Source: Candidatus Schekmanbacteria bacterium (GTDB lineage Bacteria > CSSED10-310 > JACPHN01). From it: 13,931 nucleotides of DNA. Where the stretch lies: contig JACPHN010000154.1 of assembly GCA_016188575.1 (NCBI GenBank), positions 1-13,931 of the forward strand. The letters are read 5' to 3'. Of this stretch, positions 12,422-13,931 are shown in pieces. The position numbers and the translations under genes are program-made. The notes beneath the pieces were generated by a model. That model searched no databases, had not been told where the DNA came from, and was given only the letters and a program-made list of their open reading frames with translations. Every line of letters begins with the position of its first letter. Position 1 is the stretch's first letter.

Positions 12422-13486
12422 TTGGCGCACTTTCCTGGGTGGGGCGCGAGCGCGGCGCAGAGCTGGGAGCAAGGATTTGGCAAGGTGGGGGTCGAGGTCT
12501 TTTCGTCGAGCGCGGCGGCATGCGGTTGCCGGAGTGGTCCTCCGGAGCCTGCGGAAGCGCTCCGGAACGGCGGAGCGCGGCGGAGGTCGACGCTACGGCT
12601 CCGCCATTTCGGAGGCAGGCACAGGTGGGCAACCCTCACCCTCCGGCGCGCCGGAACGGTGCGGCTGGGTAGCCCGGCGGGAGAGGAGGGTCGCGATGAT
12701 GATGAGGGTCCGGTGCACGAGGTGTGCGTGGACGGGTTCTGGCTGGGGAAGTATGAGGTGACGCAGGGTGAGTGGGAGAAGGTGATGGGGAGCAATCCAT
12801 TGCGGTTCAAGAAGGATGAGCGGTATCCGGTGGAGCAGGTGTCGTGGGACGACGTGCAGGTGTTCGTGGGGCGGCTGGGGTCGGGTTTTCGCTTGCCGAC
12901 GGAAGCGGAGTGGGAGTATGCGGCGCGTGGGGGGACGACGGGAGCGCGATTCGGGGATCTGGACGCGATTGCGTGGCATTATGGGAACAGCGGTGGCAAG
13001 CCGTATCCGGTAGGGGAGAAGAGTCCGAACGCCTATGGGCTGTATGACATGCTGGGGAATGTGTGGGAGTGGACGGGGGACTGGTTTGGAGGCTATCCGT
13101 CGGGGAGTCAGCGAAATCCTACAGGGGCAGGCGCTGGCACCGACCGGGTGAACCGCGGCTGCGGTTGGAACTGCGGGCCGCGCGGCGTGCGGGCGGCCCT
13201 CCGCTTCGGGAACACGCCGTCCGGCCGCTACGTCAGCCTGGGCTTCCGCCTCCTGAGCACGAAGGCGCAAACCAGGCGCATGGGGCAGCATCCGGTGTGG
13301 TCACGGCCCACCGGACCGTCTCCACGCTCGTCCCGGCCCGAGATCCCGCACCGGCGCGTTGCCGGTCGAATACGCCTGGCAGCTCCGGGGCTGGTAGCCG
13401 AGCGGCGAACGTCCCGGGATTGCCTTTCTCGCCGCCTGAAGGCGGCACCGAATGAGCGAGAGGACCGCCCATGCCCAACTCCGTAG
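12422..13486 (+). CDS. FGE-sulfatase domain protein with DGR-like variable C-terminus
   Basis: About residues 71-280 form a formylglycine-generating-enzyme/sulfatase-modifying-factor domain, a C-type-lectin-like fold. It shows VRLGSPAGEEGRDDDEGPVHEV, FWLGKYEVTQGEWEKVMG, YPVEQVSWDDVQVF, RLPTEAEWEYAARGG, PNAYGLYDMLGNVWEW and, at 241-277, DRVNRG...LGFRLL. This fold is the usual scaffold of DGR target proteins, and the last block looks like a variable region. Many members are not true formylglycine enzymes, so a ligand- or protein-binding role is more likely. The first about 70 residues match nothing and the only far-upstream start is TTG, so the real start is unknown. About 75 residues after the domain look like read-through: family members usually stop soon after GFRLL. 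The end overlaps the kinase gene by 16 bp. Confidence 0.65.
   Translation: MAHFPGWGASAAQSWEQGFGKVGVEVFSSSAAACGCRSGPPEPAEALRNGGARRRSTLRLRHFGGRHRWATLTLRRAGTVRLGSPAGEEGRDDDEGPVHEVCVDGFWLGKYEVTQGEWEKVMGSNPLRFKKDERYPVEQVSWDDVQVFVGRLGSGFRLPTEAEWEYAARGGTTGARFGDLDAIAWHYGNSGGKPYPVGEKSPNAYGLYDMLGNVWEWTGDWFGGYPSGSQRNPTGAGAGTDRVNRGCGWNCGPRGVRAALRFGNTPSGRYVSLGFRLLSTKAQTRRMGQHPVWSRPTGPSPRSSRPEIPHRRVAGRIRLAAPGLVAERRTSRDCLSRRLKAAPNEREDRPCPTP
13142..13258 (+). other. putative DGR variable region (VR)
   Basis: This 117-bp segment encodes residues 241-279 of the FGE-domain protein. At places where DGR templates commonly encode Asn (AAC), the codons are TGC (13160, 13172), GGC (13184, 13223), CTC (13199), TTC (13205), TAC (13229), GTC (13232) and AGC (13235), with AAC kept at 13169 and 13211. 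All end in C and all can arise from AAC by altering adenines only, as DGR mutagenesis does. GGT (13163) and GGG (13208) could come from AGT and AGG. Invariant scaffold codons (RG, W, VRAA, TP, LGFRLL) lie between them. No template repeat or reverse transcriptase is in the window, so the call depends on pattern alone. Confidence 0.5.
13431..13446. repeat. perfect hairpin GCCGCC-TGAA-GGCGGC
   Basis: A 6-bp perfect stem with a TGAA tetraloop, 25 bp before the kinase start and about 170 bp beyond the putative variable region. DGR targets often carry a hairpin just after the variable region that aids homing, but those lie within a few bases to tens of bases. This one is more likely the transcript-end structure of the upstream gene or a part of the kinase leader. 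No U-run follows. Confidence 0.4.
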
Positions 13487-13755
13487 CCCCCACGAACGCC
13501 GCTGCCGACGCTGCCGACGCCGACCGGCAACCGTCGCGCCTCGCGGTAGGAGATACCTTCCTCGGCAAATACGAGATCCGGCGGGTGCTCGGTCGTGGGG
13601 CGATGGGAGTCGTCTACGAAGCGGCGGACCGGTTCATTGGCCGGCGGGTGGCCATCAAGACGATCAGCTTCGACGCGGCGGCGTCGCCCGCGGTGATGGC
13701 CGAGCGGTTTGCGCGCGAGGCCCGCGCCGCTGGACGTCTCATGCACCGTTCCTAA
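13471..13755 (+). pseudogene. Ser/Thr protein kinase, truncated after N-lobe
   Basis: The start of a Hanks-type (PknB-like) Ser/Thr kinase: LGKYEIRRVLGRGAMGVVYEA carries the GxGxxG nucleotide loop (residues 41-46), VAIK gives the ATP-binding Lys63, and REARAAGRLMHR is the alphaC helix with its Glu83. The family would continue with (P/N)NIV and the C-lobe, but the frame stops at TAA after 94 residues, so no catalytic loop or DFG exists. The ATG has AGAGGA six bases upstream, a good ribosome-binding site. From about 13742-13751 the sequence changes to one resembling an insertion-sequence end, so an insertion is the likely cause. Kinases of this kind are often fused to FGE-sulfatase domains; the lost part could have carried one. 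Confidence 0.7.
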
Positions 13756-13931
13756 AAAGGTAGACAAACGTAGACACCGTTGATGTCCAAGCCGTCTCCG
13801 TCGCCAGGCGAACAGCGTTCCTGACTTGCAGTCGGAGTCGCACCGACCTCCCGGAGATTGCCGCCAAGACCGGCCTTGCTCCCCTCGCGGGAAGTCGGTG
13901 CGGTCGAGCGGAGAGCGTGAATACCTCCTCT
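13742..13931 (+). mobile_element. possible left end of an IS3-family-like insertion sequence
   Basis: The kinase frame breaks at a segment that starts TGCACCGTTCCTAAAAAGG and continues TAGACAAACG. Terminal repeats of many IS3-family elements begin with TG and contain a CC(T/C)AAAAAG(G/T)TAGAC-like core, which is the basis of this call. GTAGACA is directly repeated at 13760-13766 and 13770-13776. An imperfect inverted repeat (13837-13853 with 13888-13904, 14 of 17 matching) follows. No transposase frame is recognisable in the remaining 190 bp: one plus-strand frame is open from 13764 to the end but matches nothing I know. The exact boundary and family cannot be settled here. Confidence 0.3.

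Follow-up and report, generated by a model that had tools for sequence, protein, structure and literature searches.

Several DGR classes together with degenerate loci have already been described in a single genome, that of Thiohalocapsa PB-PSB1 (PMC10907252), and the locus analysed here (a stretch of 13,931 nucleotides, hereafter referred to as the window) belongs to this known kind of system. The features shared with PB-PSB1 are the coexistence of several DGR classes within a large genome (the second being putative here), FGE/C-type-lectin targets, loci without a reverse transcriptase (RT) or template repeat (TR), and transposon-derived sequences nearby. The TRs of PB-PSB1 were recovered, whereas no TR was found here, and the variable region (VR) of the window does not match the resident class. 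The DGR of Bordetella phage BPP-1 (mtd, avd, TR, brt) provides a second point of comparison. The RT of the resident DGR is related to Brt (phmmer, E 2.4e-23) and its Avd belongs to the same family as that of the phage (NF033474, 103.8 bits for a cut-off of 80; bAvd, PF22296), but the resident cassette has no TR between avd and the RT gene, and its target is an FGE protein rather than Mtd.

The closest full relative is IMG/VR contig 3300047160_021337 (hereafter referred to as L189), which carries an FGE target VR, avd and an RT 60% identical to the resident RT. In contrast to the resident cassette, nothing is missing from this compact locus, in which the TR immediately follows the RT (order target, avd, RT, TR). 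Within this contig from a viral collection (positions 1–2247), the VR, at 312, and the TR, at 1954, differ only at A sites throughout the 37-codon repeat. The TR of L189 and the window segment can be aligned codon by codon, but their scaffold bases differ.

Anatomy of the window and its FGE gene

The window corresponds to the entire contig C267 of a 9.2 Mb genome assembled in 275 contigs (completeness 93.8%, contamination 3.7%), the sole representative of its order and class in the genome set compared. The reading frame, coordinates, scaffold residues and FGE-sulfatase domain given in the initial annotation were borne out, and a search of the window confirmed that it contains no RT, Avd or TR. 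The features considered are as follows:

12422–12646, + strand: in-frame stretch 5' of the FGE domain, without a recognisable N-terminal domain or a plausible start near the FGE domain
12647–13255, + strand: FGE-sulfatase (C-type-lectin fold) domain (PF03781, E 9e-44, residues 76–278 of the ORF at 12422–13486)
13145–13255, + strand: VR-like segment of 37 codons (RVNRGCGWNCGPRGVRAALRFGNTPSGRYVSLGFRLL), delimited by the codon-usage break at its start, the pattern of differences from paralogue C18 and the alignment with the TR of L189
13256–13486, + strand: read-through tail of 76 codons plus stop, identified by comparison with FGE paralogues
13471–13755, + strand: N-terminal fragment of a protein kinase gene (weak match to PF00069; repeat search)

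The PF03781 match ends at 13255, so the VR-like segment constitutes the C-terminal end of the C-type-lectin-fold domain. In most of the FGE paralogues of the same genome with an intact end, the stop lies 3 to 13 codons past the equivalent point. The sequence of the 12422–12646 stretch suggests that the FGE gene of the window may be truncated at its 5' end. The kinase gene is interrupted at about position 13745 by a repeat (13745–13931) that ends the contig, is common to contigs C63, C227, C48 and C40 (80–98% identity) and is probably the end of a mobile element. On the basis of this anatomy (no plausible start, a lost stop and an adjoining disrupted kinase gene), we take the FGE gene to be degenerate.

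Codon usage, paralogue comparison and template searches

The initial annotation read the segment as a DGR-type VR on the grounds that nine of its variable-site codons end in C and depart from AAC at A positions only. This is true of any NNC codon, making the argument nearly circular and of little weight alone, and a template or an independent contrast is therefore needed. Two variable-site codons (13175 and 13208) are GGG rather than NNC, that at 13208 being compatible with an AGG template codon, as in the TRs of relatives. Three AAC codons remain (13151, 13169 and 13211), not two as counted initially. The scaffold residues are kept, except that in the RGG motif a TGC codon (Cys, 13160) stands in place of that for the second Gly; this G>T change is beyond adenine mutagenesis unless the lost template had an A at this position.

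Third positions shift from 15% C and 59% G upstream to 65% C and 33% G in the segment, with the switch at about 13139. The break holds in four-fold codons, for which amino acids play no part: 7 of 62 such codons end in C in the body, versus 14 of 27 in the segment (p=8e-5). The same four-fold break was found in paralogue C18 and in the five aligned resident targets, but is missing from most of 76 FGE homologues; by this measure, the window ranks eighth among the 76 FGE segments, with resident targets and the TR-verified target L047 around it. In L047 (10001–11000), the VR and TR form a clean pair, with 14 A-site differences and no others over 105 bases, and the TR lies about 270 bases after the VR. 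The codon break cannot be relied upon as a diagnostic feature in all genomes, and its lack means little: a TR-verified target, L122, shows no break, its whole gene being C-rich.

Contig C18 carries the only close paralogue of the window segment (76% DNA identity). In codons with a changed amino acid, the third base was kept in 11 of 13 cases in the VR and 8 of 23 in the body (p=0.006), and adenines accounted for 1 of 55 unchanged positions in the VR and 36 of 202 in the body (p=0.002), in a comparison that covers 27 codons and involves a paralogue that is itself a decayed fragment. Among control pairs of GC-rich FGE genes (n=363), 0.3% reached the third-base contrast and none reached all three measures; these pairs are more diverged than the window and C18, which flattens their codon-position contrast. 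Several synonymous scaffold differences between the window and C18 are, like Cys 13160, ordinary mutations. All 10 codons starting with AA in the TR of L189 align with NNC codons of the window, versus 13 of 27 elsewhere. This test and those based on the codon break and C18 were devised post hoc and overlap in part. The segment stands out beyond chance in the codon-usage tests, which presuppose no template. The differences from C18 and from independent TRs thus lean to adenine-derived positions, with ordinary changes also present, in a segment without a template of its own.

The second copy differing at A envisaged in the initial annotation was not found: neither BLAST nor a degenerate pattern that tolerated substitutions at candidate A sites retrieved a TR matching 13145–13255 anywhere in the assembly, which is incomplete. 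No RT of a second DGR class was detected in the assembly either. DNA searches within the order, the class and the phylum matched only the window itself, a pattern search of viral contigs yielded no template-like sequence, and a plasmid search returned short conserved FGE motifs only. The interpretation of the segment as a DGR-type VR is supported by the codon-usage break and the contrast with C18, but not by a matching TR.

These results bear on the possibility that the segment is part of an ordinary FGE domain on which no DGR has ever acted, with C-terminal loops that vary naturally and a codon bias of accidental or recombinational origin. The failure to find a TR in the assembly is consistent with such an origin, as are the variation of the C-termini of most FGE homologues at the same residues and the weakness of the NNC argument alone, the enrichment in C-ending codons at columns variable among resident targets being non-significant (14/19 versus 9/18, p=0.18). 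We nevertheless consider this origin unlikely, given the break in four-fold codons that most homologues lack, a contrast with C18 in the direction expected for a DGR, and the presence in the same genome of FGE genes targeted by a DGR.

The resident DGR and its targets

A DGR RT, the other element envisaged elsewhere in the genome, is indeed present, with avd, an IGNQTSQ motif in the RT and several diversified FGE targets. Contig C70 (L170, 1–1113) contains an FGE target, followed by avd and then by a DGR RT that is cut off by the end of the contig. Contig C111 (L172, 58978–60286) contains a target, a disrupted avd remnant and the RT fragment with the IGNQTSQ motif; its avd/RT region holds a 23S-rRNA-IVP-like four-helix gene (PF05635), which disrupts avd. 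These RT fragments surfaced only when ORFs at contig ends were searched with Brt by phmmer; the PF00078 search missed them, its only match being an unrelated RT fragment at the end of contig C164. Candidate L139 (contig C164, 42327–42769) was rejected as a DGR RT: it is group II intron-like, with permuted matched stretches, and lies at a contig end.

The C-terminal half of the resident RT is absent from the assembly, and no convincing candidate for it emerged from a search. For the resident TR, a search with a guessed, mostly AAC template matched only VRs, both RT copies being cut at contig ends. As the TR comes after the RT in L189 and the resident RTs run off contig ends, the absence of a TR here is uninformative; by analogy with L189, the resident TR probably lies in the missing part of the assembly.

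A strong adenine-type VR footprint was observed in five to six other FGE genes of the genome (L173, L174, L170, L172, L175 and L171, on contigs C221, C136, C70, C111, C119 and C91, respectively). The six paralogues have conserved bodies and hypervariable ends, with an inversion of variability by codon position (0.165/0.151/0.294 in the body and 0.384/0.279/0.160 in the VR). In the five targets aligning without gaps, the 66 invariant positions of the VR include no A, whereas the body has 21 among 122 (p=1e-4). Several of the six proteins have their FGE domain after long low-complexity Thr/Pro/Ser-rich linkers or repeats, which probably break the assembly.

The window VR differs at 23 of the 66 positions invariant among the five resident targets, whereas genuine resident targets differ at 0 to 4 of 66–70 such positions in a leave-one-out check, and no non-A mismatch with the TR is seen in the trans targets of the published case (PMC10907252). 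The window therefore appears to belong to another template class, which would be represented here only by the window and the decayed C18 copy. Judged by its scaffold, the segment does not currently serve the resident DGR as a substrate, and the initial proposal of a remote target of a DGR elsewhere is unsupported for the only DGR detected. The window gene and the targets of the C70/C111 DGR share their fold, the general layout of the segment and the genome, but the scaffold mismatches make it highly improbable that the window is a remote target of this DGR.

Origin and significance of the window segment

The segment at 13145–13255 is probably a stranded former DGR VR in a degenerate FGE gene, derived from a second DGR class that has been lost or was not assembled, and the stranded, fixed copy was the better fit of the two options initially put forward. 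According to this scenario, an error-prone RT would have reverse-transcribed the TR RNA, introducing random bases at adenines, as in known DGRs, and the cDNA would have replaced the 3' end of the FGE gene, leaving AAC and AGG codons randomised and the scaffold unchanged. The template class of this copy would be distinct from that of the DGR now seen in the genome. A matching TR would thus have existed in the past, and diversification of the gene would have come to an end. The gene would have decayed afterwards, with the loss of its start and stop and the accumulation of non-A changes, and the VR variant is probably frozen because of this decay.

The segment might instead still be diversified, as a remote target, by a second DGR of this genome that was not assembled. 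The completeness and fragmentation of the assembly would leave room for such an element, the detected cassettes being cut within the RT at contig ends, and multiple DGR classes per genome are documented (PMC10907252). We regard this as improbable, as only one RT class was detected and the gene looks truncated, with its stop lost. Similarly low credence is given to the broader proposal that kinase-associated FGE genes, such as the window gene and C18, are remotely diversified by a second DGR class that has a template of its own.

Under the reading that we favour, sequence alone sufficed to pick out an orphan VR here, and following this lead brought to light a fragmented DGR with multiple targets. 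Roux et al. stated of their own survey that remote or orphan targets are missed when an RT is required beside the VR (PMC8144416). Screening for orphan VRs without a template may be possible through the break in codon usage, an approach that fails where, as in L122, the whole gene is C-rich. The host of this DGR is a bacterium alone in its class among the genomes compared and, should a second class be at work in it, this one bacterium would have two separate FGE repertoires.
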